Assembly (NCBI GenBank): GCA_030867875.1
Contig: JAOWCC010001634.1
Coordinates: forward strand, 54,783,352 to 54,847,351
From: Actinernus sp. WN-2022
Taxonomy: Eukaryota > Cnidaria > Anthozoa > Actiniaria > Actinernidae
DNA length: 64,000 bases
Reading direction: 5' to 3'
The notes beneath the pieces were generated by a model, which saw nothing but the letters and a program-made list of their open reading frames with translations, had not been told where the DNA came from and made no database searches. Of the stretch, positions 8,593 through 62,189 are shown in pieces. The translations under genes were made by a program, and so were the position numbers. Numbering within the stretch: the stretch's first letter is position 1; every line of letters starts with the position of its first letter.

Positions 8593-9353
8593 ATGGAAGA
8601 AAATAATCATCATATTTTAAATAAAGAAATACCAGAGATAAATGTACCAGTTTTAAAACATACCGAAAATAAAATTATCATTAATGGCAAATCATATAAA
8701 ATTCATCCTATTTATGATTTATATGCAGCTAGTAGAGATGGAAAAGTTATTAATATTGTGAAAAAGAAAAAAATTGATGGAAACATTACTAATTCGAGTT
8801 ATTTATCATGTAAGGTTAGAAAGCATGCACAAAAAGGACAACAGTCATACTTGATTCATAGATTTATATGGGAATATTTTAATGCTATTATTACAGATAA
8901 TCAGGTTCTAGATTATAAAAATAATAATAAAGTTGATAATACACTTGATAATCTACAACTAATGACACAACAACAGAATTGTAAAAAATCTGCTAAAGAA
9001 AGAGATTATTCATTTACTAAAAATAATCATAAGAATAAAAAATGTGTAAAAGCCTCTAATTGTGATACGAATGAAGTAACATATTTTAATAGTTTGTATG
9101 CTATTCAGCAACACTTATATATTAATTGTGGTATAGTAAAAATGGTTTGTGAAGGTTGAATAATTGTAAAATTGGTATATCAAAGAATGATAATTGTAAA
9201 TATAAATTTGAATATATAACAAAGGAAGAATTACCAGATAATTATATAAAATCTGCTAGCAAACGTCCCAAGAGAGGGAAAAAAATATATGAAATAAACA
9301 TTATAAGTAGTAATTCTAGATCTTATTACGTCATTGTAAATACAATAATGTAA
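8593..9353 (+). pseudogene. HNH/NUMOD-type homing endonuclease (frameshifted)
   Basis: The first frame (8593-9159, 188 residues) has a start ATG and IYDLYAASRDGKVIN, a NUMOD-like DNA-recognition segment. Then come IHRFIWEYFN (His) and NQVLDYKNNNKVDNTLDNLQ, the shape of an HNH catalytic core, with an Asn-rich region after. A +1 frameshift near 9158 moves the C-terminal domain (GISKNDNCKYKFEYI) to the other frame, ending at 9353. Such genes cut DNA to spread themselves and ride on giant viruses, phages and Polintons. It is AT-rich like the rest of the element and is the leftmost gene. The HNH assignment is from pattern, not search. Confidence 0.65.
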
Positions 9354-9451
9354 TATTCATTAAAATATATTTTTCTCACTAAATTTAAGTAAAAAAGGTA
9401 ATATATGACGTCATGACACAGCTGTGTCGGTTAGGTGTTCGCCCTTTGTTA

Positions 9452-11058: not shown

Positions 11059-11178
11059 TATATTGTATTATATATAATATATTTTTATTTGATTTTGATC
11101 AATATTTTTCTTTATCATATCTAAGTTTATAAATGAATCCACCATAAGGTGTTACGTCATAAGAAAAAGTTATTTCTC

Positions 11179-11457
11179 TCATCTTGTGAGTTGTTTTAGG
11201 AATTCTTGTTTTACTTCTTCCCGCATTTTTTGAATGTCTAAATTTTTGTTTGGTTCCTCTTGTGTATCCTCTTTACGTATTAATGGTGTAGTATCATAAC
11301 TATCCCAAAACGATGTTTCATCTGTAGATTGATGATGAGGAAAAGGATTTGTTGTACTAGTTGTTGTCATATGAATCATTTCATTACCATCATCATCACC
11401 ATGATCAATATCATGATCAAAAGGATTTCTAGTATCAGTATCTGGGTCAATATCCAT
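11179..11457 (-). CDS. small acidic protein, Polinton-associated
   Basis: An intact 92-residue frame starting at 11457. The N-terminal half is rich in Asp/His (DIDPDTD, DHDIDHGDDDGNE) and Thr, the C-terminal 30 residues are charged and helical (IQKMREEVKQEFLKQL). It lies in a row of five small - strand genes between the two structural-type genes. No known function is recognised. It is one of the few genes of the element with no visible break. Confidence 0.5.
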   Translation of the reverse strand: MDIDPDTDTRNPFDHDIDHGDDDGNEMIHMTTTSTTNPFPHHQSTDETSFWDSYDTTPLIRKEDTQEEPNKNLDIQKMREEVKQEFLKQLTR

Positions 11458-11505
11458 TTTATATTATAATTTATAATATAAGATAGCTTTTATGTGATTT
11501 AAAAA

Positions 11506-11919
11506 TAACTAGATAAATTTCGTAGCTATATATGTTATAGCTAAAATACCACCACCAACATATATCATTTCATATTGTTTCTGTTTATTACTTGGTTTAT
11601 ACTAATCAGAAAATTGTGGTTCATTCGAATTAAAATATGGATGCGTTTGAGCATATAATCTGAAAGCATCATCAACCTCTTTATCGTTATCATCAGCACG
11701 AATTTTATTTTGATATTTTTCTGATAACCAATCTTATTATTCTTGTCTTTTTTTCTGCCATTCACCAATATCGTGTTGATATTTTTCTAAAGCTTTATCG
11801 TGTCTGATTCGTTCTTCATCTGAGTCGTTACCAGAGAGATATTTTGCAAGATATAATCCTCCTACGAATGTTGTTGCATTCACAATAGCTCCACCAATCA
11901 TTAAAGCTATAGTTGCCAT
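11506..11919 (-). pseudogene. small two-membrane-segment protein (in-frame stops)
   Basis: Starts at 11919 with IALMIGGAIVNATTFVGGLYL, a membrane segment, then a charged helical middle (RHDKALEKYQHDIGEWQKK). Two consecutive stops near 11737 and a further stop near 11600 interrupt the same frame, which otherwise runs on to MIYVGGGILAITYIATKFI, a second membrane segment, and a stop near 11506. Originally about 137 residues. Probably a virion membrane or assembly protein of the Polinton; that is inference from context. Confidence 0.55.
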
Positions 11920-11952
11920 TTATATATTATGTATTACATCTTTTATTTTAAA

Positions 11953-12167
11953 GTGATTTTGGAATTATTTTTTTATCTTCAAGATAATCTTTCAAATACA
12001 TACTTCCGGCTAACACTAAAACCCCATTTACCATAACTTGTGATGCTTAATGAGGGATCGTTTATAAATGAATCATTCACCTTTTTACCGATATAACCAA
12101 CGCCAGCTGAAAGTCCAACAAGAATCGATGCATCTGTAACTGTTTTAACTAGTTTGTTTTCTGACAT
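11953..12167 (-). pseudogene. small membrane protein (one frameshift)
   Basis: Starts at 12167; residues about 8-28 (TVTDASILVGLSAGVGYIGK) look membrane-associated. Near 12020 the frame shifts, and the sequence resumes with VLAGSMYLKDYLEDKK to a stop near 11953. About 72 residues in all. It sits between two other short membrane-protein genes in the same direction. Confidence 0.5.
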
Positions 12168-12204
12168 ATAATGTTATGTTATATATCATACCTTTAAATC
12201 AATA

Positions 12205-12593
12205 TTATTCCATACCTATTATTCTAGGAACTGGAATTTTTGATTTTGTGGGAGATTTACGTTCTAACGATGGAATAATTTCTGTTTGTGATACATTATC
12301 TTCAGTGATGTTTTTATTAGTAGAAGTATTATTTTTCTTCCACATAAAATATAAATCTATAGCAGTTAATCCTATTCCAACTAATGATAATGCAGTTGTT
12401 ATAGATATATCCGGCATCCATGATTTAGTTGTTTCTTCATTAGTTTCTTCATGATTAGTTTCAAGAGCTTTCTTTGCTTTTTTATGATACTCTGCCAACC
12501 TTTTTCCTGCTGCAGCCTTTTTAGGGTCTTTTGTTTTGTAATTGTTTCCTTGTTTTCTGGTTCTTTAGTAATTTGTTCAATATCGTCCGACAT
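12205..12593 (-). pseudogene. small basic protein with one membrane segment (frameshifted)
   Basis: The N-terminal frame starts at 12593 (MSDDIEQITKEPENKETI). A frameshift near 12510 leads to LAEYHKKAKKALE, Glu/Thr-rich spacer, membrane segment ITTALSLVGIGLTAIDLYFMW and a Lys/Pro-rich tail ending at 12205. About 130 residues. A Lys-rich segment before a single membrane span is seen in Polinton small proteins, but no precise function is known to me. Confidence 0.5.
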
Positions 12594-12654
12594 ATTATAA
12601 TAGAATATATTAATGAATGTTTAGATGAATTCTAATAATAAAGAATATTGTTAG

Positions 12655-12770
12655 AAGTCTGCTCAAGAGATGCTCAAGAGGTGCTCAAGAGGTGCTCAAG
12701 AGTCTGCTCAAGAGTCTGCTCAAGAGATGCTCAACAAAATTCAAGAGTGCTCAAGAGATTGTTCAACAGT
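12655..12770. repeat. TGCTCAAGAG minisatellite
   Basis: About nine imperfect copies of a 10- to 13-bp unit, TGCTCAAGAG(A/G), lie over the 3-prime end of the small gene at 12741-12920. They appear to have grown out of its Gln/Leu/Glu codons. Confidence 0.75.
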
Positions 12771-12920
12771 TTGTTGAATCTGAGCATGAAAATTATTATT
12801 AACAGTTTCTTGAATCTTAACATGTTTTGCTATTTGAATTAAACCACTTGCTAGAGCAACCATTCTTCCACCTTTTATAACAATATATCCGGCTATGTTA
12901 TTCAGTTCTTGTTTGACCAT
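12741..12920 (-). CDS. 59-residue Polinton small protein ending in Glu/Gln repeat
   Basis: ATG at 12920, stop at 12741. The sequence begins MVKQELNNIAGYIVIKGGRM, with a weakly hydrophobic middle, and ends QQTVEQSLEHS. Beyond the stop, the minisatellite continues to encode SLEQTLEQ-type units in shifted frames, so the original protein was probably longer and its tail repeat expanded. It is the neighbour of the genes at 12593 and 13322. Function unknown. Confidence 0.45.
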   Translation of the reverse strand: MVKQELNNIAGYIVIKGGRMVALASGLIQIAKHVKIQETVNNNFHAQIQQTVEQSLEHS

Positions 12921-13322
12921 TTAATTTTTTTGTAGATCTTCGCAAAGCTCTTTTTTATCATCAATAGGGATTACATAAGAAACTATTTCTGTAGCAGTTT
13001 CAATAGCTGTATCCACTAAACCATTCGTAACATTATTTACCATAACAATTTGGTATCTATTATGATATTTTTCAACATCTTTGGATGATAATTTGTTAAC
13101 ATCACCTAAACTCATATTTACCCCAATAAACTGATTAATAGTTCCCAATACAGCTATAATTGATAAAGATTATCTTTTCTCTTCAATATCTGTTTTATTA
13201 TAGTTAGTAGAAACTGATTTTGACTTTACTTTAGTTGGTTTGTTTTCTTCAATACTTTTTTCATTGTTAGAATCTTCAATTTGATTATCATCGTTTAAAT
13301 ATTGATCAACAATTGACGACAT
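12921..13322 (-). pseudogene. Polinton small protein (one in-frame stop)
   Basis: Starts at 13322 with an acidic/Asn-rich N-terminus (DQYLNDDNQIEDSNNEKSI), then one TAA near 13167. The same frame continues IIAVLGTINQFIGVNMSLG, KYHNRYQIVMVNNVTNG and ends YVIPIDDKKELCEDLQKN at 12921. About 133 residues. The second half has a weak hydrophobic segment. It abuts the ATPase gene (13343) and overlaps nothing. Function unknown; transcription with its neighbours is likely from spacing. Confidence 0.5.
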
Positions 13323-13342
13323 TTTTATTATAATTATAAGTA

Positions 13343-13932
13343 TCAACTATTATTTAAATCATTTGCATTTGGTATCTCAAGATAACACTGAAATGGATAT
13401 CGTAAACAAAAACAAATCCTAGAATATTATATCTCCTCCACATTCATCAAATATAGTTTTTGTTGTTATCTGATTTGGATTATGAAATGAAATTACACAT
13501 GCTACATTTTCACAAAATGGCTTAGCAATCGAGGTTAATTGTTGAGTTAACACCCAGACTGATATTCCAGTATGACGTCCAGAAAATCCTAGTTTGATGA
13601 ATTCATTTGATCGTTGTTTCAGATCTTTAGAAAAAGCACAATCGTCTAAGATAATTAATGTATTTGAATCTGAAAACAGTTGTTGACAACATAACAACAA
13701 ATCATTAATCTTATCTATATTATCTGCATCTGGTAATAATCAACCTTGGATCATCCTTACCAAATCCATGATAAGTCTCATTTTCCACATATGTAGGGCA
13801 TATCAATACTATATATTCAAACACATAACGAAATGGGCCTCTTAGCTGATCAATTAAATATTTTGTTTTTCCACAATTTGTAGGACCTGTGATAATACAG
13901 TGAAAAGGTGTCTTATCATTCAATTCTTCCAT
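13343..13932 (-). pseudogene. A32-like genome-packaging ATPase (FtsK/HerA superfamily), frameshifted
   Basis: ATG at 13932. Walker A is ITGPTNCGKTKYL near the N-terminus; Walker B is TLIILDDCAF about 75 residues later, followed by FSGRHTGISVWVLTQQ, the sensor region of this family. Frameshifts lie near 13722 and 13430, and the frame after the second ends at 13343 with an LRYP-type C-terminus. Original length about 195 residues, slightly short for the family. These ATPases pump DNA into the virion of Polintons, adintoviruses and poxviruses. The catalytic motifs survive but the gene is broken. Confidence 0.85.
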
Positions 13933-13970
13933 TATATATAAATATATACTAATCAAAACTTTAATACATT

Positions 13971-15185
13971 ATTGAGCGTAAATTAGAATTCATAACATCC
14001 ATCAAAGCATCTGCTATAACATATATAAAACATGTTATATTCCCTGAACCACCAACTTTTCTTTTAATCTCTACTTTAACTCCATCTTTTGTATTGTTCA
14101 GCAGTGGCCCATTTCCGTGAATATCATTATCTGCATATATTCTTAAATCAGCTTAAGAATATTTTTGTGAAATAGAATCACTGGAACCTACACGTTTTAA
14201 AATAGAATCCCAAAAATCAGTAGGTACCATCCCTTTCGAATAGAGACGGTTTGGCATCCATCAGTATTGATATTAACAGAAATTATATTAGGATTAACGA
14301 ATTTTTCACTATCTCTTGCCCCTGCAACATACATGTATGTCTCCGTAAATAAACACAATATACCACTCATTGATCTCCTTGGAATATTCACATGCTCATT
14401 GATAACACTATCGTTCAGTTTTGATATCGTAAAAGTCTTATGAAGATGAACATTTTCATAATAGAAACCTTTACCAACTTGATAGGTAGATTGGGCTTCA
14501 CGAGCTAAATATTCGCTTGATATACATTGGTACTCCAGTTCTAGATTACTCATACTGTATACATATGGTTTCGTATTATCAGATGTTACTACGACATCTT
14601 TTGATTCTGGAAGTGTTATCTTAAATGTTAATACATGAGGTAAGGCTTTTGGATAGAAAACACCATGATTATCAATAATTGAATCATTGATTGGTATTCT
14701 ATACTTTGTTCCATGTATTGCTGCAAGTGCTACTTCTTTAGTATCTGTGCTAACTTTATCTCCAGCATTTGTTCTGAAGAGATACCCTGTTTTAATCGAT
14801 TCTCACGTTCTTCCTTTGATAAGAATAAATCATGATATGTTTTAAATAGATCATATCGTTGAGTATCTTGTAGGGTCTCTCCTCCAAATAAAACTATCTT
14901 ACGTGTATTTAAATTTTGACCTATATTATTTACAAGAGTATTATTCGCATGTCCTCCTGAAGCCAGACTGATGGTGCTTATTAAACCAATGCTTCCTGGA
15001 ACAATTACAACATTATCTGATAACTTAGGTGTGTTTATATATAAAGTTTCTCCCGGGCTTGCGGAAGATGGGTTCATAGTTATTCGATTCAAACAATTTT
15101 CTGCTTTTAAACCAAATGGTTGTTTGTAGGCTCGATTGACATCTAACTTTTCTGAAATAGATTGTTCTGATATAATATTATAAAG
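13971..15185 (-). pseudogene. Polinton major structural (capsid-candidate) protein, N-terminus lost
   Basis: The frame is readable from about 15185 to a stop at 13971, roughly 400 residues, with stops or shifts near 14735, 14240 and 14155. Blocks: SSASPGETLYINTPKLSDNV, a Gly/Ser/Asn-rich stretch, LFLSKEERENRLKQGI, IDNHGVFYPKALPHVL and IPRRSMSGILCLFTET. The many beta-strand-like stretches, the size and the gene order next to the ATPase fit the Polinton major capsid protein, but I have not verified the fold. No ATG is seen at the 5-prime side, where the divergent integrase begins, so the N-terminus is deleted. Confidence 0.6.
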
Positions 15186-15207
15186 AATTAACTAGTTTTA
15201 CCTTTAT

Positions 15208-16152
15208 ATGAATAAGAAACTTTCGAGGATCTATTATTCAACTAATGGTTATTGGAAAGGTTATTCTGCTGTTTCTAAATTAGCAAATGCTGCTAATGTT
15301 AGTGAAGATTTTAGAATTGGCTTGAGAAACAAGCGATTTGGCAGATTTATTTACCTCCACCAAAATATATTCCCAGACCACATTGGAATATTTCCCTACC
15401 TAATGAAATTCATCAAGCAGATTTACTATTCTTACCACATGATACTGTGAAAAGAAGAACTTACAAATACGCTTTAGACGTTGTCGATATAGCTTCTAGA
15501 TATGTTGAACCCTTGACGTCTAAGTATTCAACAGAAATATCAAAAGCTTTTACTAAAGTTTATTATAGAAAATTAAAATGGCCTAAAACATTGATGGTCG
15601 ATCCCGGAAAAGAATTTATGGGAGAAATGAACAAACATAATATTAAAATTCAAAGAAGTGATGCTGGTAATCATAGAGCACAATCGTTAGTTGAAAGAGC
15701 TAATAGAACTATTTCTGAAAAATTATTCAGTCATCAATATGCTAAGGAAATGGTTATGGAAAATGAAAGATCTAGAGAATGGGTTCAAATATTACCTGGT
15801 GTTCTGAAAGCCATCAATAGTGAAATTAAAAGAATTACTGGAAAGACACCTACCAATAAGCTCTCAAAAAGTTGAAAATAAAGAAAAAGAGTACAAAAGA
15901 TTAGATGAAAAAGTATTACCATCACTTGTGAAAGTAAGGTATTTATATGCTCAAGGACAGCTTGAAGGTGGTGAAAAACGTAGAGCTACTGACCCCATAT
16001 GGAGTTTGGAAATGTATTACATTTTATGCAGTATTATTTCTCCGAATCAACCTGTGTCGTACTATCTGTCTGAAGGAGCTGAGAAGAATTGAGAAGAATT
16101 GCAGATTGTGCCTTATGGTATAGAATTACCACCTGATAGTATTTTAAAATAA
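15208..16152 (+). pseudogene. Polinton integrase (retroviral-type, rve/DDE), frameshifted
   Basis: ATG at 15208. The N-terminal part has frameshifts near 15310 and 15440. The catalytic core lies at 15447-15875 with D in ALDVVDIASRYV, D in MVDPGKEFMG and E in QSLVERANRT, so all three DDE residues are kept. After TGKTPTN (15860) the frame shifts and part of the sequence is deleted. The C-terminal region continues DEKVLPSLVKVRYLYAQGQL to PPDSILK and a stop at 16152, with one stop near 16090. It joins element ends to host DNA. It converges with the polymerase gene (stop at 16414) and diverges from the capsid-candidate. Confidence 0.88.
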
Positions 16153-17654: not shown

Positions 17655-20600
17655 ACAAACTTTATTCACACCAAATTGCAACATTACAATGAATAATAAC
17701 ATAAGTGCAGTACAAGTGTCAGGTAGCCCGAAATGATAAAATATCAATCTAGTCAGGGCTACCTTTAAAAAAAGAAAATTAAATAGTTACGGTGGTTAAG
17801 CTAGATACACACACAACACATACATGTATACACACACACATAAATATAAAAGGGAAAGACTCTTAGTATATATAATTGATCAAATTCCATAAAAAAAAAG
17901 GAAAAAAAGAATTAGTATTTTGATAGAAACTCCTGCTTTAGATTTTTGCTGAAACATTTATGTGTTGATAGTTGCTTTAAATCACCTTTAATTTGGTTCC
18001 AAATCTGTACACTAGTATATCTTATTCTAAATTTCCCATAATTTGTTCTAATTGTAGGTGCATAGTATGCTGCTTTGGAAGCCAAACGAGTATTATAATG
18101 GTGAACATTAGTGACGTGTATAAAGAAATTATCAAAAGATGAGGGGAGATCATTATAAGATAAGATAGATAAGATATTTATTTCAACTCGGGGGGTTGAG
18201 GCTTGTTAAACCTCTAGCAAGTACATGCTAATTAGCCGAGACTATCTACTTACAGCTAGTACATAAATTGAAATCTTATATACAATTACATATGAGTACA
18301 TTATATTAACCATAACTAGTATTAATTACAAGTGGACTATATAAATATATATATATATGTATCGGTAAAAGTTAAACCAATATGGAATTTTAAATCAGAG
18401 AATTTCAGTATGCCAAGATCTTTAAACAAGAGATTAGTATGAGCATTAAAAGAGGAAAAGGTCATTATACGTAGTGCTTTTTTTTGTAAAATAACAAGGG
18501 GTTTAAGAGAGGTCTGATAAGTACTACCCCAAGCCAATAGACCATACGTAAAAAAGGGATACACAAGTGAATAATAAATTTTAACTAAGGTGTCAAGGGG
18601 TACAAAATGCCTAAGCTTAGATAGAATTCCATTTCCTTCAGATACTTTTTTTGATACATTTTGGATTTGATATTTCCAATTAAGATTAGCATCTATTAAG
18701 ATACCAAGGTATTTAATATAAGGCTTGCAACATAAAGTCTTCCTATTTATGACAATATTTATAGGGTATACTTTCTTTTGTGATGGATGAAAAATAACAT
18801 AATTAGATTTATCAATATTTAAAGATAACTTATTGGTAGCTAACCAGTCCTTAATTTTCTCCAATTCAACATTTGTGGTAGATTCAAGTTGATCTAAGTT
18901 CTTATTTGCTAAAAATAAATTTGAATCATCTGCAAATAAATGAAAGTTAAATACACTGGAAAGTAAGGAAAATCATTAATATAAATTTAAAAAAGTAAAG
19001 GTCCCAGTACTGATCCTTGAGGGACACCACATGGGACAGGCTTTAGGTCAGAAGATACATTACCAATGGATACAAACTGTTTTCTATTAGATAAATATGA
19101 ATAAAACCAAGAATTTGGAATACGTCTTACACCATAAAAATTAAGTTTTTGGATCAGAATATTATGATTGACGGTATCAAAAGCTTTACTAAAGTCTAAG
19201 AAAATATCACAGGCAAATTCCCCATCTTCAATAGCACATTGGATTTTATCAATTATCAGTAAGATAGCATGTATTGTGGAGTGTTTTGGGCGAAAACCAA
19301 ATTGTGAATTAGATAAAACTTGATGTTTTTCAAGAAAATCCCAAAGGCGATTATACATAAGCATTTCAAGAAGTTTATTAAAAATTGAAAGAAGTGATAT
19401 GGGTCTAAAATTATTCATGATAGTTCTTTCACCATTTTTAAACACTGGAATTACCCTTGCTATTTTAAAAGAGTCTGGTACAGTGCCTGTGGAAAAAGAT
19501 AAATTAAATATTATCTCAAGGGGTTTTGATATTAGATCCCTTAGGAGCTTCATAATTGAAACTGGAATACTAGAGGGCCCAGCTGCTTTGTTAGTAGAAA
19601 GCTTATCAATTTCTAATGCAATTTCCTCTGATGTTCAGGGAAAAAGAAAAAACTTTCCTTAACTGGAGTTTTCATGTAACTAAGTGGAGAAATATTGGAG
19701 GATTTAATGGAATTAGCTAAATTCTTACCTATATTGGAGAAAAAGGCATTAAATGAATTAGCAATAGCTAATGGATCAGTTATTGCATTGTTCTTCACAA
19801 ATATTTTAGAGGGAATAAATGTTGAGGTATTCTTAGTTGATATAATTTGTTTGATATTTTTGGTACAACTTTTTCTCTTTACGAGATAACTTTCTCAAAG
19901 GAGCATGTTTATCAAGAATTTCACTAGTTTTTGCATGGAATATTGTAAAAAGATCATCAGGCGAACACGATTCAGTCGGAAATAGATTTGTAAAGTCAAC
20001 CTTAGTATAATCCTCAATCAAGTTTGATGAATCCAATTTAGAATAATCTCTTTTGTAGATAACACTCTTATTAATACAAGGATAAACCTTATCAATAACT
20101 GATGACAAAGTTTGGAAGGTGATCAGAAAGATCAGAAATAATATTTCCACTAACAGTAAAATGATCTAAAGAGTTAAAGAAAATATTATCTATCAATGTG
20201 GCTGAATGATGGGTTATTCTTGTAGGTTTGATGATTAGGGGTTGAAAAGAATAAGAGCTGAGCGTGTTAATATAATCTTGTGTTAAGGGATGAGAATCAC
20301 AATTAATCAAATTAATGTTAAAGTCACCCATTATAATACAATATTTGTTTTGTTTGGAGACATCATCAAGAGTTTTATGAAAATCATTGAGGAAAATGTC
20401 TAAAGATGAATTAGGATGCCTATAAAATACTGAAATAAGAATATTCTTTCCTTTTTTGTTTTCAATTTCAATCCAGATTGATTCGTATTCATTTGTGCAA
20501 GTACTTAAATCATCTCTTAGATTATACTTGATATTATTCCTGACATACATTCCAACACCACCAGAGCATGAATTACTAGGCTGTGAAATAAAGGAATAAC

Positions 20601-20988
20601 CATTTAAATTTGTATTAGAGCTATAATGTTTTCCTTTTTGGAATTTTGTTTCTGACAAACCTATGATGGAAAAGGTAAACTTTAACTCTGCTAACATATT
20701 TACAAGACTATCGAAATTAGCTTGAAGACTTCGAATATTGCAATGTATGGCAGAAAAACTATTTATTGAGCAATTCTGAATATCTGAATTGGCATGAAAT
20801 TGATGTGGAGAATAATATTTAAAGTTAGCTATTGTAGGAAACTGAGAATCCATATCAAAATCAGCTAGATAAGGTATAGATTCAATAGAAGATAATAGAT
20901 CATGACATGGCAGTGAACTAAGTAATGCTTCTGAAATAGAATCAGAACAAAGACAAGTTGTATTCAAGTTATAGGATAATTCAAGCAA
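17655..20988 (-). pseudogene. LINE ORF2: AP-like endonuclease and reverse transcriptase
   Basis: From 20988: endonuclease with IHCNIRSL, LSETKF, GGVGMYVRNN, IMGDFNINLI and LSDHLP (EEP fold catalytic motifs). Frameshifts near 20100, 19840 and 19630 follow. Reverse transcriptase (19553-18987) has FRPISLLSIFNKLLE, FLDFSKAFDTVNH (motif A) and CGVPQGSVLGPLLF; the FADD box is near 18930 after a shift. The thumb/C-terminal part runs 18864-18366, then past the small insertion to about 17950, with the YNTR motif. It nicks DNA and primes reverse transcription at the target. At least five frameshifts make it dead. Confidence 0.82.
18157..18365 (-). mobile_element. LINE 3-prime end inserted in the LINE
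   Basis: A GATAA-type tail (18157-18180 on +) followed by about 180 bp with no match to the host LINE separates two halves of the ORF2 C-terminal region (FHIGL on one side, NDLPSSFDNFF on the other). Interpreted as a short 5-prime-truncated insertion of another LINE. Boundaries are approximate. Confidence 0.5.
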
Positions 20989-21011
20989 TTCGCTTATGCT
21001 TAAAGAATTAA

Positions 21012-24000
21012 GAGCGGCATTCTGTAAATATCGCCGGAGGTTTGCAAAATGAAAAAAATCAAAATCCTCAAATTTTGTCAGAATATAGGTCTAGGGGAAC
21101 TATTTATAAAATAAATAATTTTACTTCGATCCGATTATTATTTTAGGCGAACGGCGACCATTACGGTTTGACGCCTCTCAGACGATTTCCACGGGCTCGA
21201 CACCACACATCACTATACGCAGCTCGGCTAACCATGAACATCAGAATGTACAATACTAAATAGCTCAATGGAAAGTACAAATAATGCTTTATGTTTTGGT
21301 GTGTTAGTTCTTTAATTTGATTACAAATTAAATATTTTAGCGATTTTTATTATTTTGCTTATTTTATCCATTTTTGGATAACAAAATATTGACCAAATTG
21401 AGAGGATAAAATCGTACATTGGTACATGGCTTGGCTATATAAGAGTTAAACCCACCGAAAGAGCATTCTTTCTTCTTCAAGAAACTACAATAAAATTTTG
21501 GGGCTATTTAAAACTACGAATTTTAAGAGCGCCAAACGCATGCGACACTGAGGTCAAAAATCGCTTTCTTCTTACGGCGTTCGGATGTCTAGAATTCATG
21601 ATGCGCAAAGAAAAAAATATTGTATCAACTTCTCCGCAGTAATATTGGCTATTGGTGAAGTCTGACCACTGCCAAGTATGTTATATCTTGGTTTCTAGCG
21701 ATTGTGTGTGGATCTAGTAACTTTTAGCGGGATTTTTTCTGACTGACAGATCGAGCTACATCATTAATTACTCGCTCCATTCGGATAATTTTTTGAAAAT
21801 TCTAAGTCATTTTGAAAGTCTACGATTGAGCTATTTAATGACAAACATGAACAAAATAATTATTACCATCTAAATATGTACCTTTTAAGTGCATGTTTCG
21901 TTTAAAAACAGTAGAGGTATAAACTCTGCATTGCAACGATTGCATTACACACAGGAATCCCGCATATAATTCAACAGAGCGAGATAGATAGGGTGTATTG
22001 TTTTGAGTTTTTTTTTTTTATCGCTGTTGACCCCGTCACTTTTATTCGTTGTCGTGTTTAAGGCGGTTTCGCATAGATCTATATGCCGGGATTATATAGG
22101 CTAAAGGCAAGAATTAAACCGCATAGTCACAATTTTGGAGATTTCAGTCGCATTTCGGGGCTTTTGAATACACTGCGACCTAAAAGTATATAATTACGAA
22201 TAGCACCCCCACGATTAAAATACTAAATTAATAGTTATAAAACCACCCCACCCCTCCTTATATTTATAATAAAAATGTACCTAATAGGTAGTGAATGTTG
22301 CCGTTCAGTTAAGGATGTGTATTAGAAAAAAATGAACTACCTCTTTGGCAGGAAAAATATATTACTGGGTGAGAAAAATGCCAAGGTGTTAGATGAATAT
22401 ATTTAATTCTGTAGTTTTGGGTCTGTCGTGCGACTGAAGCCTGACATGCTCGAGTTTTGAGCTGTGGTGTGTTTTCTCAAAACAATTCCCGATTTCTTTC
22501 ATTTTGTCCCGACATATCAACGGTTTTCCGGTAAATTCAAGCCTACCAATTTCCGACATTTCTTAGGATTCCCAGCACAAAAAAACTGCTGTTCTGCCCG
22601 GTGAAGTTTAAACAAAGGAAATCCGATTGTAATTGAGAATGTAATTGTAAATGATAATTGTGTTTTGAACCGGCTGCTTGACTTTATCGAAGGCCAATAG
22701 AAGAAAATGATTTGCTGCTCACGATCATGATAGAAGGAGAGAAAACTACACGACTACACGCCGATCGCCTACACGACTCTAGTGACTTCACCCGCATTCT
22801 AGGGCTTTTCATGACAGGTATAGGTGTGCCACATCCATGCTGTAGTCGGTGATGCCGTGTTGTCTTGACTCTATATTCCGTAATACCAGGGATGTATTGC
22901 TTAATAATGGGGTGTGGCACCAGATCTGCCATTATCGATAGGACTTGCCTACGAGTGTCCCAACTGACTGCATTTTGATAAGTTTCTGCCAGTGCCTCCA
23001 GGTCAGTACTTTGTATCATGTGGAAGTTGCTGAGTTGTACCTAGTAAAGTCTTCTCAGCCGACAGGGAATATTTCAGAGCTTCCCACAGACAACCTGCGT
23101 CTCCTTGAGTGATGACTAACCTATTATAAACTAACTAACTATTAGAAACTCGTTCAACTTTAAACGGCGTAGGCCAAGGTTGGCGCTAGCTCCATTAATT
23201 TTTTCACTTGACGATTCGCTACTGCTAGTATGCTCACTGAGGAGAGTAGTGACTTATGTCCTTCTCGAGTGTTTGGTTTTCCATTGCTTGGCACAAACCA
23301 TTGTTGCTGCTGTCGACTTCCTAAGGTATGTACAATAGATAGAAATATAAGAACACGTTAACTAACATCAACCAAAAAGCGTTGCAAAATATTCATATCG
23401 ATTTAAGGCTCTGTATAATAACAATATAAACAACACTACACACATACACAAAGGTAAACTACAGAACAAAAGACAACTATTCGATAATGCATGACACGAA
23501 CTGACACGAACATTTCTTTCTGACTTCAACATTTCTTAGAGTGAAAAGTGTAACAGTTGTCTGGTTTTCAATGCGTTTTTTTTCCATACCACTTCACTTT
23601 CAGATGATTCAGCGGGAGATAGAGTGATATATTTTTCTTTTTTGACTTTCTCTTCTGGAAGAACATCCTCTGATGTGGGTGAGGCACCGGATTGTGTGGA
23701 GAGCAGCTCCTTTCCCAGAAGCAGGCGGCATTGTTTACATATTGCTGAAAGAAACATATAGGTTCCCGATATATAAATACGTGCATTATAGTTTAAAAAA
23801 GTCACATTAGTTCAGATCGTGCGCAGACTGTTAGCAGATTACATTGATATCATAATTTATTTCACTTACGCGAGGCAACTGGAACAAGTGTAGAAGACAC
23901 ATTATAGAGCTCTCTAGATTGCAGGAGAGTCATTCCACGATCTCCCCTCATTTGCTTGTCCTTGTGAGGAGCCCAGTTCGGCGGAGACGCACACGACTTT

Positions 24001-35481: not shown

Positions 35482-35588
35482 CAATCGTTAAATTTTGTTT
35501 ATTAAGGTACTTGGACGAGTTCAACCCTATGAGCAAGACACCTATGTCACTTGTTATATTGAACACATCTCTCGAGTGTGCAGGATAC
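35482..35588 (+). pseudogene. duplicated dynein exon C, decayed upstream copy
   Basis: A ~107-bp tandem duplication covers the polypyrimidine/acceptor region and the first part of exon C. Acceptor ATTAAG and YLDEFNPMSKTPMSLV are present, then 13 bp (coding for the MFKFA region) are missing, shifting the frame. No stop occurs before the genuine acceptor at 35614. Splicing here would give a frameshifted insert; the intact copy follows at 35615. Confidence 0.8.
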
Positions 35589-35614: not shown

Positions 35615-35742
35615 GTACTTGGACGAGTTCAACCAGATGAGCAAGACACCTATGTCACTTGTTATGTTCAAGTTTGCTATTGAACACATCTCTCGAGTGT
35701 GCAGGGTGCTCAAACAGGATAATGGACACGCCCTGCTTGTAG
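35615..35742 (+). CDS. DNAH1: dynein heavy chain (DNAH1-like), exon C
   Basis: Acceptor TTATTAAG; the first G completes the Ala begun in exon B. It encodes YLDEFNQMSKTPMSLVMFKF, IEHISRVCRVLKQDNGHALL and V, the run-up to the AAA4 P-loop. The donor is GTGAGT at 35743 and the last base begins the Gly codon of the P-loop. A broken tandem copy lies just upstream. Confidence 0.92.
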
Positions 35743-41041: not shown

Positions 41042-41175
41042 GCCTGGCCCGAAGATGCGCTCGAAATGGTGGCTGATAAGTTCTTGGAGGACATTGACAT
41101 GGGCCTGGAAGTAAAAAAGAAATGTGTGTTCATGTGTAAATACTTCCACGAGAGTGTGATGATGTTGTCTGAAAG
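41042..41175 (+). CDS. DNAH1: dynein heavy chain (DNAH1-like), exon G
   Basis: Acceptor TTTATAAG, phase 0; AWPEDALEMVADKFLEDIDM then KCVFMCKYFHESVMMLSE. It ends with AG, the first two bases of an Arg codon, before donor GTGAGA. The next bases downstream are the start of the 79-bp repeat array. Confidence 0.92.
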
Positions 41176-41194
41176 GTGAGAAGTAATATTTATA

Positions 41195-42012
41195 GCATTA
41201 TTTATGCCATTAATACTACAGATACTACCAAACACTCCAGCGCCGTAACTATGTTACCCCTACTTCATACCTTAAGCTTATCATGCCATTAATACTACAG
41301 ATACTACCAAACACTCCGGCGCCGTAACTATGTTACCCCTACTTCATACCTAGATTTTATCATGCCATTAATACTACAGATACTACCAAACACTCCGGCG
41401 CCGTAACTGTGTTACCCCTACTTCATACCTAGATCTTATCATGCCATTAATACTACAGATACTACCAAACACTCCGGCGCCGTAACTATGTTACCCCTAC
41501 TTCATACCTAGATCTTATCATGCCATTAATACTACAGATACTACCAAACACTCCGGCGCCGTAACTGTGTTACCCCTACTTCATACCTAGATCTTATCAT
41601 GCCATTAATACTACAGATACTACCAAACACTCCGGCGCCGTAACTATGTTACCCCTACTTCATACCTAGATCTTATCATGCCATTAATACTACAGATACT
41701 ACCAAACACTCCAGCACCATAACTATGTTACCCCTACTTCATACCTTGAGCTTATCATGCCATTAATGCTACAGGTACTAACCAAACATTCCAGCGCCAT
41801 AACTATGTTACCCCTACTTCATACCTTGAGCTTATCATGCCATTAATACTACAGATACTACCAAACACTCCAGCGCCGTAACTATGTTACCCCTACTTCA
41901 TACCTTGAGCTTATCATGCCATTAATACTACAGATACTACCAAACACTCCAGCGCCGTAACTATGTTACTCCTACTTCATACATTGAGCTTATCGTGCCA
42001 ATAATACTACAG
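41195..42012 (+). repeat. 79-bp minisatellite made from an intron-exon junction
   Basis: Ten units start at 41204, 41283, 41362, 41441, 41520, 41599, 41678, 41757, 41837 and 41916 (one unit is 80 bp). Each contains the TTAATACTACAG acceptor and about 60 bp matching the start of the next dynein exon (YYxxLRRxNYVTPTSYLxL in frame). The genuine junction at 42012/42013 is the eleventh. Some units alternate TATG/TGTG, suggesting dimer duplication. 79 is not a multiple of three, so reading from one unit into the next hits TAA in CCGTAAC. Confidence 0.93.
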
Positions 42013-42298
42013 GTACTACGAAATACTCCGGCGCCATAACTATGTTACCCCTACTTCATACCTTGAGCTTATGATGACGTTCAAGACACTGCTTGACACC
42101 AAGCGCAACGACATCATGGCGCTAAAGCAACGTTACCTGACGGGCTTAGAAAAATTAGAGTTTGCAGCGTCTCAGGTGTCGGTGATGCAGATAGAGCTAA
42201 GTGACCTTCAACCAGAGCTAATCAAGACTTCTGCTGAAACCGAGAAACTAATGATCAAGATTGAGCAAGATACTGTAGAAGTTGAGGCCAAGAAAGAG
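42013..42298 (+). CDS. DNAH1: dynein heavy chain (DNAH1-like), exon H (stalk start)
   Basis: Acceptor ACTACAG at 42012; G completes the Arg of exon G. It encodes YYEILRRHNYVTPTSYLEL and then MMTFKTLLDTK, a helix-rich stretch (RYLTGLEKLEFAASQVSVMQ, ELIKTSAETEKLMIKIEQD) forming the first coiled-coil helix of the stalk, ending EVEAKKE in phase 0. The donor GTTTGC is weak. A start at the first ATG (42071) would miss the acceptor-proximal 19 codons, which are conserved in dyneins. Confidence 0.92.
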
Positions 42299-49281: not shown

Positions 49282-49393
49282 GTACGTAACCAATCCAGAC
49301 TTCAATCCAGAGAATATCAGAACAGTATCGTCTGCATGCGAAGGCTTGTGTAAGTGGGTTCGTGCTATGGAGGTCTACGATCGAGTGGCAAAG
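49282..49393 (+). CDS. DNAH1: dynein heavy chain (DNAH1-like), exon K with GC donor
   Basis: Acceptor GCTTCAG; G completes Lys. YVTNPDFNPENIRTVSSACE, GLCKWVRAMEVYDRVAK closes the microtubule-binding domain. The exon ends AAG and is followed by GCAAGT, a consensus GC-AG donor. No GT gives the phase 0 needed by exon L. The intron is 11.9 kb. Confidence 0.92.
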
Positions 49394-50500
49394 GCAAGTA
49401 AATTAATAGTTACTATTTGGGGGTTTTGGGGTTCATTTTTAGGCGACCATTGAATCAGGTGAGGAAAGCCGTAGAATAAAGATATTTGTCTATTTAATTA
49501 TTATTTCATTAATATATTCGACAACAGAACATTAGTTTTATTGCAAGTAAAAGGTTTTGGTGTGTTAAATTGGCTCTTTGTTGTTTCTCGAATAAAAAAG
49601 AGAGAGAGAGTTGGACAAACTCGAGAAGCATGTTGTGATAAAGAAATTAAACTGAGAGATCAAATTGGGCAAGTCCAATAGTGGTTGTACCAAAGGCTGA
49701 TATGTCTTGGAGAATATATTTCAATATCTTACTAAAAAGGCTAGAAATCTTTGAAAACCAGTCATATTTTCAAAAGTGATATCTTCACGTGTGAATATAT
49801 TACTTCTTAGAAAGAAATATACACTGGTATTTCATCGATAATAAGTTTCTGTTTAGTTACAGCTGATACTAACCTAAAATCCCGATTACGCTACACTGAA
49901 TAAACGGTACTGCAATCGAGCTTCCCCGACTCGGGATTTGTGTGGATACCTGTGGTCTTCGCCGCTATAAAGTACTCGATTTGTTTATCGAAGAGCTCGT
50001 ATCTTCGCCCTGTATGAATGGCCTTTCTCGATGCCTACCTGCAAAAAGTATATTCAGAAATAAAAGACAGTTTATTAGGCATCGACTTTTAGGGATGTTG
50101 GCGAGCTTCGCCATACTAATGCATGATGATGAACCCGGATATGATTGGGTCATCACAAGCAGGGAAGTACCCGGCTTGAGTTAAATTGCATTTCCCTGAT
50201 TCGATTCATTTCTTCGATAGGCTTTTAAACGATTACCTTGCTCGCATAAACAGGGATTACGGGTAACTATCTACAAAGTAATCGGGACCATCAGGTGTGA
50301 AGAATCCATTAAACCAGCATGGGGCACTCGTAACTAATAGAAGGATTTTATTTGATCTGTTGACAACATGAGACTGTACTTTGATTACTTCAACCGGAGA
50401 GAATTATCCGATTAATCAGGTTTCTTTAGTTATGCTTAAGTTTACATTAATCGAGGTTCTCCATTCAGATAATTGCCAAATACAACTTCTAAAACCCGAT
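49394..50500. other. intron, nothing recognised
   Basis: AT-rich; the open frame at 49942-50184 has no motif I know. No repeats until the 59-bp array begins. Confidence 0.45.
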
Positions 50501-50501
50501 C

Positions 50502-50737
50502 AGGACATTCCATGTTTGTCATGTGGAGAAACTAGTCACATAATCCCGCATGACCCCAAGAGGACATTCCATGTTTGTCATGTGGAGAAACTAGTCACAT
50601 AATCCCGCATGACCCCAAGAGGACATTCCATGTTTGTCATGTGGAGAAACTAGTCACATAATCCCGCATGACCCCAAGAGGACATTCCATGTTTGTCATG
50701 TGGAGAAACTAGTCACATAATCCCGCATGACCCCAAG
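50502..50737. repeat. 59-bp tandem array, four copies
   Basis: Copies start at 50502, 50561, 50620 and 50679 with AGGACATTCCATGTTTGTCA and are nearly identical, implying recent expansion or active homogenisation. No conserved coding. Confidence 0.9.
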
Positions 50738-55920: not shown

Positions 55921-57475
55921 AATTTCCCCCGTTTCTCGATTCTGTCGTTAAAACGCAAACGCTGAAATGTTTTAAAGGAGATAGTATACATTGCAAGCTT
56001 TCATATGGTATAAGTTTGACTTTATTTGGTGATCTACAAGTGATCAGTAATTTGCGAAGTGAAACTTTTTCAAGTCGGTATACCGACTTTGTCATTAACA
56101 AATGAACGACGCCGTTCTGAGTTCAGTGAAGTAAATTTTCCCCCTGTTTTCGATTCTCTCGTTAAAACGCATCGCTAAAATGTTTTAAAGGAGATAGTAT
56201 ACATTGCAAGCTTTCATATGGTATAAGTTTGACTTTATTTGGTGATCTACAAGTGATCAGTAATTTGCGAAGTGAAACTTTTTCAAGTCGGTATACCGAC
56301 TTTGTCATTAACAAATGAACGACGCCGTTCTGAGTTCAGTGAAGTAAATGTTCCCCCTGTTCTCGATTCTCTCGTTAAAACGCATCGCTAAAATGTTTTA
56401 AAGGAGATAGTATACATTGCAAGCTTTCATATGGTATAAGTTTGACTTTATTTGGTGATCTACAAGTGATCAGTAATTTGCGAAGTGAAACTTTTTCAAG
56501 TCGGTATACCGACTTTGTCATTAACAAATGAACGACGCCGTTCAGAGTTCAGTAAAGTAAATGTTCCCCCTGTTCTCGATTCTCTCGTTAAAACGCATCG
56601 CTAAAATGTTTTAAAGGAGATAGTATACATTGCAAGCTTTCATATGGTATAAGTTTGACTTTATTTGGTGATCTACAAGTGATCAGTAATTTGCGAAGTG
56701 AAACTTTTTCAAGTCGGTATACCGACTTTGTCATTAACAAATGAACGACGCCGTTCTGAGTTCAGTGAAGTAAATTTTCCCCCTGTTCTCGATTCTCTCG
56801 TTAAAACGCATCGCTAAAATGTTTTAAAGGAGATAGTATACATTGCAAGCTTTCATATGGTATAAGTTTGACTTTATTTGGTGATCTACAAGTGATCTGT
56901 AATTTGCGAAGTGAAACTTTTTCAAGTCGGTATACCGACTTTGTCATTAACAAATGAACGACGCCGTTCTGAGTTCAGTGAAGTAAATGTTCCCCCTGTT
57001 CTCGATTCTCTCGTTAAAACGCATCGCTAAAATGTTTTAAAGGAGATAGTATACATTGCAAGCTTTCATATGGTATAAGTTTGACTTTATTTGGTGATCT
57101 ACAAGTGATCAGTAATTTGCGAAGTGAAACTTTTTCAAGTCGGTATACCGACTTTGTCATTAACAAATGAACGACGCCGTTCTGAGTTCAGTGAAGTAAA
57201 TGTTCCCCCTGTTCTCGATTCTCTCGTTAAAACGCATCGCTAAAATGTTTTAAAGGAGATAGTATACATTGCAAGCTTTCATATGGTATAAGTTTGACTT
57301 TATTTGGTGATCTACAAGTGATCAGTAATTTGCGAAGTGAAACTTTTTCAAGTCGGTATACCGACTTTGTCATTAACAAATGAACGACGCCGTTCTGAGT
57401 TCAGTGAAGTAAATTTTCCCCCTGTTCTCGATTCTCTCGTTAAAACGCATCGCTAAAATGTTTTAAAAGGCATAG
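55920..57475. repeat. 213-bp satellite array, about seven copies
   Basis: GAGATAGTATACATTGCAAG recurs at 55978, 56191, 56404, 56617, 56830, 57043 and 57256, exactly 213 bp apart, and units are almost identical. Each unit has the perfect palindrome AAGTCGGTATACCGACTT (first at 56072-56089) and the hairpin GAACGACGCCGTTC. The first and last units are diverged, as expected at array edges. No coding. Confidence 0.93.
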
Positions 57476-57594
57476 TATATATTAGTATAATTTTGTGGAA
57501 GAGTTAAGTTTGACTCTTTAAACTAGTTATACTATTTGAAATGGATTAGTTAAAGAGTACGGACTCTTCAACTGTTGAACTAATCCAATGTCAA

Positions 57595-60485
57595 TGTCAA
57601 TTTCAATTTCAATTTTATTTACAAATACTATAAGGGAGAACGTACAGAAGAAAGGCCAAAGCCAGAGGCTTAAATGGCTTATGGTCAGTAGAGATAGTAC
57701 AATATTACAAGTATTTTTTTTTTACAAGATGGAAAGAAAATCAAAGTGGTGAATTAACTAACGAACATACACACACAAAATAACTATAGTTTACAAATTT
57801 AAAATAATTAAATAAATAAATAAATAAATAAACTGCTTATTGATATATACCTTATTGCCTGTATTTATAATTGACATTGTTGCCTGTATTTTTTGATTTT
57901 TTTTTTTGCAAAGAAAAACTAAATAATTATTAAATGATAACAGTGTGTATTAAAAAGTATAGATAAAATTAAGCTTTAATAAAACGAATTTTTTAAAGTA
58001 CTAGCGATCATGTAGGAAAAATGTTTTAAGTTTCTTTCTGAAATTGCCAACATTTAAAGAGTTGCGAAGAGAGAGGGGGACACTATTCCAAATAGTAGGG
58101 GCCTGTGAACGAATAGAAAATTGGTGTTTAAGAAATTGTTTATGGAGATTAAACCTTGAACGAGTAAAGTAATCATGACATTCATAGTTAAAAAGAAAAA
58201 GAGAAGAAAGAGGAGCAGGTAGTAAATTATTGATATGAGAAAAAACAAAGGATGATATTTGGAATTTGTAAATAGAAGAAATAGGTAGAATGTTCAGACT
58301 GAGAAAGAGAGGTTTGGTGTGACTATGCAGAGGAGAGTGTGTAATAATACGCAGAACCTTTTTTTGAAGTAAGACGAGGGGTTCGATGTGAGAAGAATAG
58401 ATAGATGCCCAAATAAGGTTGCAGTAGTTGAGATATGGTAAAAATAGAGCATTATATAAAGTCTTTAAAGTTTCAGAGGCCAGATATTGCCTGGATTTAG
58501 AAATAACACCAATTACTTTAGAAATTTTATCACAGATTGTGTCAATATGAGGTTTCCATGAAAGATTTTCATGAATAATAATTCCTAAAAATTTGGCATT
58601 TTGTACTCTATCAACCAAAGTGCCATTAATAATGATGTGTATACCACTGAGGTTAACTTTTTTTCGCCTAGGATGAAAAAAAATGAATTTAGTTTTGTCA
58701 GGATGAAGAGTAAGCTTATTAGCATTAAACCAAGAATGATTGAAGAATGAGTGAAGAAGGATCTTGGTGACTAAAGAAAATATTAGTATCATCGGCAAAT
58801 AGGATAAATGATAGGAGCTTTGAAGAATTAAAAAGGTCATTGATATATAAAAGAAAAAGAAGTGGTCCAAGCACTGAGCCTTGTGGAACTCCACATTTGA
58901 TGGTATTATATGAAGAAATATGGCTGTCGATTTGTACAAATTGTTGTCTATTATAGAGATAACTAGTGATCCAGGCTAAAGGAGTACCACGAATGTCATA
59001 AAATTTAAGTTTTTCGATAAGAATTGTATGATCAACAGTGTCGAATGCTTTCTTTAAATCAACAAAGATACCAACCGTAAATTCATTTTTTTCAAAGCCT
59101 TGAAATATGTGGTCGACAAGTTCGAGAACAGCCATGTAAGTGGAATAATTTTGTCTAAAACCATATTGATGATGATTAAGAATACCGTACTTCACAAAGA
59201 ATTCAGTGAAGCGAGAATAGACGAGTTTTTCAATGACTTTAGAAAAGCAAGGCAAGATAGAGATGGGTCTATAATTGGAGAAATTGGTTTCATCGTCGCA
59301 CTTGAAGACAGGAAGAATCTTAGCAATTTTAAGTTTATCAGGGAATTCACCAGCAGAGAATGATAAGTTACAAATATAAGATAGAAGAGGAGCTAGTAAG
59401 TCAATAGAATGTTTAATTGGTGAAATACGGATACCGTCATAACCTTCACTCATAGTATTCTTAAGTGAGGAGACAATCGAAGACACTTCTTCAGGAGAAG
59501 TTGGAGTGAGAATGAAACTATTAGGATAGGAGCCAGTTAAGAATTCTTTGTAACAGGTTTGAGAACTAGGTATGTTTCTCGCCAAAGATGGACCAATATT
59601 AGTAAAGAAGTTGTTAAATTTAGTGGCAATTTGCATGGGATCAGTATAGATGCCAGAAGAGTCTTTCATATTATGAAAGAGATGTGGTGTTTGTTTCTTA
59701 GAAATAATTTGTTTAATTATTGACCATGTGTTTTTTAAGTTAGAGTTAACAGCTAAGAGTTAACATGAAAGTATTTTTTTCTGGCAATTTTGATCAAATA
59801 ATTGTATTTATTTCGGTACTTGTGATATCTTGATGTATTGAGAAGAGTAGGATTAATAATATATTGTTTATATAAAGAATTTTTCCTCTTGCAAGAGTTA
59901 GAGAGGCCAGGAGAGAACCATGGCTTAGATAGTTTAGAGATATTGGAAGAAACAGTTTTGAGAGGAAAAGCTTGATTATAGATAGGTATTAAGTGATTGG
60001 AAAAAGCATCATAACATTCATTTGGTGAATTAATGTCATAAAGAAACGACCAGTCAGTGTTGGTTAGTTTAGCACGAAATTTAAACATATTAGAAGAGTT
60101 AACAAGGCGAATGACTTTCTTACGGGGTGACGGATCGGATATCAATTTTAGCTGAGTAATTTGAAAAATGGGAAGATGGTCAGATAAATCAGTATAAAGT
60201 AGACCACTGACCATGTTATATTCAAGATTATTTGTAAAAATGTTGTCAATAAGCGTGGCAGAACATGAGGTAATTCTTGTCGGTTTAGAGATGAGAGGGT
60301 AGAGGCTATTTGATGTCATGAGGTTGACAAAATCATTGGTAGGGTTGTGTGAATCAGTGTTGAGAATATTAATATTGAAGTCACCCATAATATATGACAA
60401 TTTATTTTCAAAACTGATAATGGATAAAACATTATTAATACACTTATTAAAATCATTAACATTTATTAAAATCATTACCATCGGA
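57595..60485 (-). mobile_element. 5-prime-truncated CR1/L2-type LINE
   Basis: 3-prime tail of CAATTT/CAATGT units at 57595-57620 on +. The element ends at about 60485 in the middle of the endonuclease domain, a typical 5-prime truncation of target-primed reverse transcription. A different copy and subfamily from the one at 17646. Confidence 0.8.
58001..60481 (-). pseudogene. LINE endonuclease (partial) and reverse transcriptase
   Basis: 60481-59753 is the C-terminal half of the endonuclease (SYIMGDFNINILNTD, PTRITSCSATLIDNIF, LSDHLPIFQI). A frameshift near 59750 leads to 59669-58740, the RT: YRPISILPCFSKVIEKLVYS, YGFRQNYSTYMAVLELVDHI, GIFVDLKKAFDTVDH, CGVPQGSVLGPLLFLLYIND, FILFADDTNIFF. Another shift near 58740 leads to the thumb and C-terminal part, NANKLTLHPDKTKFIFFHPR to FRKKLKTFFLHDR at 58001. 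Motif A and the FADD box are intact, so it is younger than the LINE at 17646. Confidence 0.85.
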
Positions 60486-60489
60486 ACTA

Positions 60490-61335
60490 GGGCAGGATTT
60501 TGCCTTAACCTTAACTAGGAATTGGTATCGAAGTGACTTGGAGTTGGTATCGAAATGACTTGGATTTGTTTTTTATATTAAAAAGAAGCGCTTTATTGGC
60601 ACGGGAATCCTTCGGCGTACCTTTGAATTATAGTATTTATTTAACAGAAGTTTCCCGTAGGATTAAACCCAAAGCGTGTGTAAAAACTTACACCTCTTTA
60701 CCCTATTGTGTTGTGCCGACAAGCTTTAGTCGTTTTTAAAATTAAGCACTTAAATCGGGTATATGGTGGACAGGGTTTTGAAGGCGGAGAAGCAGGCGGA
60801 GCTTTCTGGTCTCCCGGGAACTTTGAAACGTCATTACCCTAGTAAATATTCAAGGTTTTCAAGGTTCCCTTTTAAAATCTTCATTTGCTACCAGACTTCT
60901 ACCAGACTTTACATGAAGAGAACTTAAGAAAAAGATGGAAATGAAATCATGGTTGCTCCCGACTGCTAATCGTCTGTCTTGTCCACTACACTATCACATG
61001 AGGCCGTTTGTTGAAACGACCGTGAAAAAATTGCAATCAAAACATTGTATGCAACCGTAGTTAATAGAGTTTCTAGACTACGATGCAACAGGCAAACAAT
61101 ACTTCTTAATGATTTATAAACACAGGCATTGTTTTTGCATGAGAAGAAATTAAAAACACTCAGAGGCTACGCCTGATAAAAGACTAATTCTTGTTTGAAA
61201 TAGTTCATCAACAGTTTGTCCAAATGGAAAAGAAATTGTTTGACCGCGTAACAACACATTTATTTACTCTGGTTTATTTTGTAATAAAACCAAACAGGGC
61301 AAAGTTGTGAATATTTTTGTATTTCCTTTGTACAG
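60490..61335. other. intron, nothing recognised
   Basis: A doubled TTGGTATCGAARTGACTTGGA (60522-60565) is the only structure seen. The last bases form the acceptor of exon L. Confidence 0.45.
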
Positions 61336-61904: not shown

Positions 61905-62189
61905 TTGTTCGTTCGTTCGTTCGTTCGTTCGTTCGTTCGTTCGTTCGTTCGTTCGTTCGTTCGTTCGTTCGTTCGTTCGTTCGTTCGTTCGTTCGTTCGT
62001 TCGTTCGTTCGTTCGTTCGTTCGTTCGTTCGTTCGTTCGTTCGTTCGTTCGTTCGTTCGTTCGTTCGTTCGTTCGTTCGTTCGTTCGTTCGTTCGTTCGT
62101 TCGTTCGTTCGTTCGTTCGTTCGTTCGTTCGTTCGTTCGTTCGTTCGTTCGTTCGTTCGTTCGTTCGTTCGTTCGTTCGTTCGTTCGTT
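61905..62189. repeat. TTCG tetranucleotide microsatellite
   Basis: About 71 uninterrupted GTTC/TTCG units. A tetramer array translates without stops as FVRS repeats, which explains the long open frames here; it is not a gene. Flanked by ATTT units. Confidence 0.95.

Follow-up and report, generated by a model that had tools for sequence, protein, structure and literature searches.

The window analysed here is the whole 64,000-nucleotide stretch of contig JAOWCC010001634.1 from Actinernus sp. WN-2022, and it contains, on the forward strand, part of a dynein heavy chain gene with a minisatellite in one of its introns. Residues 2147 to 2894 of Nematostella DNAH3 could be placed by tblastn on 13 exons of the window, and joining these at GT-AG junctions, with one GC-AG exception, yielded 746 amino acids without a stop. 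The exons and the intron that frame the minisatellite are as follows:

41042 to 41175, forward strand: DNAH3 exon 7 (exon G of the preliminary description), with donor AAG/gtgaga at 41175/41176; from tblastn with Nematostella DNAH3, boundary and open frame
41176 to 42012, forward strand: intron 7, 837 nt long when the last acceptor is used; from coordinates
42013 to 42298, forward strand: DNAH3 exon 8 (exon H of the preliminary description), 286 nt, from the end of AAA4 into the stalk, with donor GAG/gtttgc; from PDB and Pfam matches and tblastn

The preliminary description had set the donor at 41175/41176 and the acceptor junction at 42012/42013, and the open frame of the 13 spliced exons shows both to be right. 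Its dynein assignment was likewise borne out, and was further placed as DNAH3 type by PDB and protein-set matches. In the PDB, exon 8 matched best the 4069-residue chain Xx of 9fqr, whose deposit name is 'putative malate dehydrogenase 1B'; DNAH3 of 8j07 came second, and DNAH7 and DNAH12 ranked below it. The name of the 9fqr chain is apparently a mislabelling of a dynein chain. A total of 1246 proteins passed a search for full-length relatives, and many of the 120 listed carry the name DNAH3 or DYH3, while others are called DNAH7 or hypothetical protein; Nematostella vectensis DNAH3 showed a 91% match to exon 8 among the matches listed. The Pfam family AAA_8 was found above its cut-off in exons 3 and 5, and below it in exon 8 (23.1 vs 25.6 bits). 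Judged by these matches, the gene is a DNAH3-type axonemal dynein heavy chain, covered here in its AAA4 and stalk region.

Over the 746 residues, identity amounts to 90.6% with Nematostella, 89.5% with Actinia tenebrosa, 86.9% with Actinostola and about 80% with two octocorals. In a tree of 16 chosen rows, the window sequence groups with Nematostella (94/89, slightly below the starred level), a starred set of four (99/99) unites it with Nematostella, Actinia and Actinostola, and the lancelet row branches outside all cnidarian rows. With Nematostella the closest of the proteins compared, this placement rejects a lancelet as host and points to a sea anemone or near kin, which at 91% is distinct from Nematostella vectensis. 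Within the window, the remaining gene lying outside it, the gene is apparently intact and looks functional from its sequence. Near-invariance, taken as conservation of at least 97% in 118 homologues, applies to 318 columns, and the window protein deviates in just 3 of them; this count, together with the open frame, rules out a pseudogene for the part in the window. The 118 rows were drawn from the 120 listed homologues, with columns filled in fewer than 100 rows skipped; one omitted row lacked the NYVTP motif, and the other was a double-region protein model, 58% identical despite its top score. The GC-AG intron arises from a GC donor, AAG/gcaagt, at the end of exon 11 (window 49393-49400).

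Only the first 28 nt of intron 7 precede the minisatellite, whose components are listed below:

41204 to 41994, forward strand: array of ten upstream units, U1 to U10, each joining 18 nt from the intron end to 61 nt from the exon start, with one inserted base in U8; from Tandem Repeats Finder, anchors, unit alignment and pattern search
41204 to 41282, forward strand: U1, with acceptor 41221/41222, which would leave a 46-nt intron; from unit alignment and coordinates
41283 to 41677, forward strand: U2 to U6, a homogenised core, 98-100% identical; from the identity matrix
41678 to 41836, forward strand: U7 and U8, in which the CAT (His) codon of the real exon is kept, U8 also having G at +1 and an inserted A; from unit alignment
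41837 to 41994, forward strand: U9 and U10, edge units adjoining the real junction; from unit alignment
41989 to 41994, forward strand: CTTATC at the exon-derived end of U10, a yTnAy branch-point-like motif; read by eye
41995 to 42073, forward strand: U11, the real copy, comprising acceptor 42012/42013 and the first 61 nt of exon 8; from unit alignment
42071 to 42073, forward strand: codon ATG (Met), which reads ATC in the upstream units; from homologue and unit alignments

From 41204 to 42073 the window thus consists of 11 tandem units of 79 bp each (one of 80), the last of which is the real junction. Tandem Repeats Finder reported the array at 41204-42076 with a period of 79, 11.0 copies, 95% matches and a score of 1499. 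The spacing of CTACAG anchors is 79, 79, 79, 79, 79, 79, 79, 80, 79 and 79, and the first exon bases at the 11 acceptors lie at 41222, 41301, 41380, 41459, 41538, 41617, 41696, 41775, 41855, 41934 and 42013. A 25-bp junction pattern, searched with at most 3 mismatches, hit the window 10 times, in nine of the upstream units and in the real copy, vs 0 times in 100 dinucleotide shuffles; U8 was missed because of its extra base. By these three approaches the ten units previously described in the G-H intron were confirmed, and the uniform length of 79 bp ascribed to them holds for all but U8, which measures 80 bp owing to the inserted base. The junction is spanned in 11 of 11 units by 18 nt of intron and 61 nt of exon 8 (62 nt in U8); a unit begins with the intron end ATGCCATTAATACTACAG, and its exon part ends in CTTATC. 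The intron sequence that precedes U1 runs through GCATTATTT directly into ATGCC, and at the other end the real copy closes with CTTATG and is followed by ATGACG. The match of the units to exon H coding sequence was also checked and stands: in an ungapped comparison with the opening 63 nt of exon 8, from which U8 was omitted since its insertion breaks it, nine upstream units agree at 54-57 positions, and over the aligned unit each of the ten shows 88-90% identity with the real copy. Furthermore, AG is present in 10 of 10 upstream acceptors. By eye, the last six bases of U1 to U10 are CTTATC or TTTATC; both fit yTnAy, with the A 20 nt before the next AG, which in U10 is the real AG. On this reading, every acceptor after the first, including the real one, would draw its candidate branch-point-like element from exon-derived sequence.

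The units are not equally related to one another. U3 equals U5 and U4 equals U6, a pattern that suggests duplication of a 158-bp dimer (a two-unit block) within the core; the edge units are less alike than U2 to U6, and U11 stands at 88-90% from all others. In total, 19 alignment columns vary among the eleven units, and five of these (1, 7, 27, 31 and 80) set U1 to U10 apart from the real copy. The identical pairs might also be taken as a sign that copies were wrongly multiplied or collapsed. Tandem arrays are an assembly hazard, and one amphioxus array of comparable kind was, in the excerpted account, aberrantly assembled in a draft genome (PMC3087553). Such an artefact is nevertheless very improbable, given the 19 varying columns, the distinct edge units and the real junction that closes the array. 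There may be an error in the number of copies; the existence of several units is hard to doubt.

Minisatellites that offer splice sites have precedents. Turri et al. reportedly described, in 1995, a minisatellite in IFI6 (6-16) that carries multiple splice donors, with alternative donors in use. The DNAH3 array resembles it in having units that offer splice sites, but IFI6 repeats donors, not acceptors, and its unit is much shorter. Tandem repeats over intron-exon boundaries are known in amphioxus as 'mirages', reported earlier in Adh3 (PMC3087553). According to excerpts of the two lancelet papers, mirage genes comprise Adh3, the globins BflGb6 and BflGb9, PGBD5 and TnC (PMC3087553, PMC3902484), the repeats in lancelet PGBD5 being similar ones (PMC3902484). 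The same excerpts describe a BflGb6 unit that joins an intron's 3' end to the 5' part of exon 2, two BflGb6 haplotypes in which a unit of 150-160 bp occurs 6 and 3 times, Adh3 units of 10-72 bp, many copies with AG or GT signals, and a homogenised core from which the edge units escape (PMC3087553). The DNAH3 array fits this picture with its boundary-spanning unit, its cryptic AG in 10 of 10 units, its homogenised core and its excluded boundary unit; as far as the excerpts go, it shares with the BflGb6 mirage the anatomy of intron end plus exon start, the homogenised core and the diverged edge. It differs from the amphioxus mirages in being anthozoan and, in the one sequence analysed, in having ten extra 79-bp copies.

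On its sequence anatomy, the array in this anthozoan dynein gene qualifies as a well-formed mirage, of a kind already known from lancelets, and it is less singular than the preliminary description implied, since mirages have been described in amphioxus (PMC3087553, in excerpt). A literature search for such minisatellites in cnidarians gave no mirage among the papers listed, and the mirage papers listed are on lancelets, which does not prove absence from print; within the scope of that search, junction minisatellites are extended from lancelets to anthozoans. Other junction repeats provide a partial comparison. In human duplicated genes, internal tandem repeats at exon-intron boundaries are reported in the excerpt to change splicing, but, unlike the DNAH3 array, these have units of about 30 bp, belong to segmental duplications and may either give rise to novel introns or remain exonic (PMC2812944). 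In addition, intron gain by intragenic tandem duplication (Rogers, 1989; Zhuo et al., 2007; as cited in the excerpted PMC3087553) is similar in that duplication supplies extra splice signals. Intron gain as such is ruled out at DNAH3: the array lies inside one intron, no unit is in frame to exon 8, and an existing intron was lengthened.

For the origin of the array, we infer a tandem duplication across the 3' splice junction that gave birth to the minisatellite. By eye, ATG occurs at both breakpoints, in similar TTAT-containing surroundings, and the breakpoints were probably the intron ATG and the exon ATG (microhomology), which would give a unit running from ATGCC through AG to CTTATC. The last copy would stay attached to the real exon, and added copies would land on the intron side, where splicing to the last acceptor would remove them together with the intron. 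The units would then have been brought to ten, and the middle ones homogenised, by unequal exchange or slippage.

An array born in this way can retain earlier states of the exon. At column 80, 10 of 10 units have C (ATC, Ile) and the real exon has G (Met). Ile occupies this codon in 118 of 118 aligned homologues, and in 119 of 119 with the motif when the double-region model is included. Because Ile is found in all aligned homologues and in all ten units, it is the real exon that changed and the repeats that kept the old codon, and the minisatellite retains an apparently ancestral codon that the working exon lost. Column 31 would be a weaker case of an ancestral state: the units' Thr is the commoner residue (38 of 119 homologues, vs Ile in 21 of 119), with Thr in Nematostella and Actinia and Ile in Actinostola. 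Change within the array is seen as well. All ten units have Gln at column 27, where the real exon and Nematostella have Glu, so that the Glu-to-Gln change common to the units looks derived, and some units change nearly invariant residues (R to Q, H to R or Y to C). The suggestion that the array preserves an older exon is thus supported at the one Ile codon, but with these other replacements the units are no clean copy of such an exon; on the alignments, the array has in part fossilised the exon, as the preliminary description guessed, and in part changed independently.

The consequences of acceptor choice can be read from the frame. Each of the 10 upstream acceptors gives a frameshift and a premature stop. 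Eight decoys reach the stop after 35 codons, U7 after 50 and U8 after 2, in all cases 261-973 nt short of the end of exon 8, and the frame is open to that end from the last acceptor only. The preliminary description had predicted a stop for every upstream acceptor, at the TAA in CCGTAAC. The stop is found in all ten, and the CCGTAAC context in 6 of 10; U6 and U10 read CCATAAC, U7 stops at 41844 and U8 at 41779. As that description also argued, it would follow from the frame that either the last acceptor is always chosen or decay transcripts are made, use of a decoy leading to a premature stop and probably to a decayed transcript. The peptide read from its own acceptor is dynein-like in every unit except U8, and one might suppose on this ground that the units are tandem alternative exons, small exons used in the protein. 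This is exceedingly improbable: a unit of 79 bp is not a multiple of 3 and reads into stops, the donor-like sites seen by eye are weak only (GTAACT, GTACTA), and the units alter the nearly invariant residues named above.

What would direct splicing to the last acceptor is not evident in the acceptor itself. With a matrix built from the 12 other acceptors of the same gene, a small sample, the real site scored -3.1 and the decoys 0.6 to 3.4; the 12 acceptors, each left out in turn, scored -0.9 to 15.3, the real site being lowest of all. Its deficit lies at positions -18 and -12, and it has the favoured G at +1. It is safe to state that the real acceptor is not stronger than the decoys by these scores, and context must therefore decide if the gene works. 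Exon 8 would be 286 nt long from the last acceptor and 365-1077 nt from the decoys, it is followed by an intron of 6.2 kb, and the first acceptor would require an intron of 46 nt. The shortest exon at the last acceptor and the 6.2-kb intron favour exon definition, by which, we infer, the last acceptor is picked; intron definition would make an early unit win instead.

The lowest-scoring real acceptor would equally fit frequent, leaky use of the decoys. In a poison-acceptor rheostat, decoys would be used at a real rate and their transcripts decayed, and copy number would set DNAH3 mRNA output, perhaps by tissue or individual. We consider this unlikely. It is consistent with the AG kept in all ten decoys and with their outscoring the real site in the 12-site matrix, and an intronic VNTR in human TERT has been published as shifting splicing and decay (PMC11830802). 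Furthermore, among U1 to U10 the 18-nt acceptor part differs at 9 of 810 unit-pair positions, vs 179 of 2790 in the exon-derived part. Counted by columns, however, 1 of 18 vs 13 of 62 vary, which is no clear difference, and purifying selection on the decoy acceptors is not claimed: the 18-nt part is less variable, yet few columns vary. Unmutated acceptors need no selection if the array expansion is recent, and RT-PCR of amphioxus mirages is reported, again in excerpt, to suggest regular splicing (PMC3087553). If the rheostat were true, DNAH3 output would depend on repeat number. In its boldest form, which we also regard as improbable, the array would be a heritable, length-variable rheostat of ten poison acceptors against one productive one, and mirages would be frequent in anthozoans and lancelets, forming an overlooked class of splice-site VNTRs in animals.

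The explanation that best accounts for the locus as a whole, to which we assign a probability of about 0.75, is a microhomology-born mirage that was later expanded and homogenised and whose last acceptor is chosen by exon definition. It builds on the observed anatomy, unit relationships, frame outcome and open reading frame of the gene, with the breakpoint mechanism, the acceptor choice and the decay as its conditional steps. Amphioxus mirages of like anatomy, which reportedly leave regular splicing undisturbed (PMC3087553), speak for it. The array thereby offers a natural experiment in splice-site choice, in which eleven near-identical acceptors are present, one is needed for an axonemal motor, and sequence gives that productive acceptor no greater strength; such a system could show exon definition against proximity in a cnidarian.

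A second duplication of an exon start was found further upstream in the same gene:

35482 to 35588, forward strand: partial copy of the exon 3 acceptor and exon start; from local repeat comparison
35615 to 35742, forward strand: DNAH3 exon 3; from tblastn and boundary

Herein, the copied exon start at 35507 lies 108 bp upstream of the real one at 35615, with 85% likeness over 117 columns. The copy is short of 13 nt and of 1 nt at two separate places, two copies being present in total, and its acceptor at 35506/35507 would add 36 codons with the frame open. Duplication of 2 of 13 exon starts suggests a habit of the genome, and enrichment is not claimed. The window has 6 tandem arrays with a period of at least 40 bp (the DNAH3 array included), as well as further direct repeats at short range; estimated roughly by hand, slightly fewer than 1 duplication would be expected at a junction, so two are not striking. 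Among the 120 listed homologues, 4 contain a repeated 9-residue word within 200 residues.

Several other elements lie in the window. Intron 2 of the dynein gene (window 8593-15875) contains virus-like or Polinton-like ORFs, with an HNH_3 match and a Pox_A32-type ATPase match, and one ORF that is integrase-like by eye. Reverse-strand LINE-type ORFs occupy window 18337-21090 and 58001-60514 in dynein introns, one scanned ORF in each matching RVT_1. A 213-bp unit is repeated in 7.3 copies at 98% in window 55924-57483, overlapping the end of an ORF that is reverse-transcriptase-like by eye. In intron 11, a 59-bp unit occurs in 4 copies with 100% matches (window 50502-50737), and in intron 12 about 70 copies of GTTC, also with 100% matches, extend over window 61907-62189.
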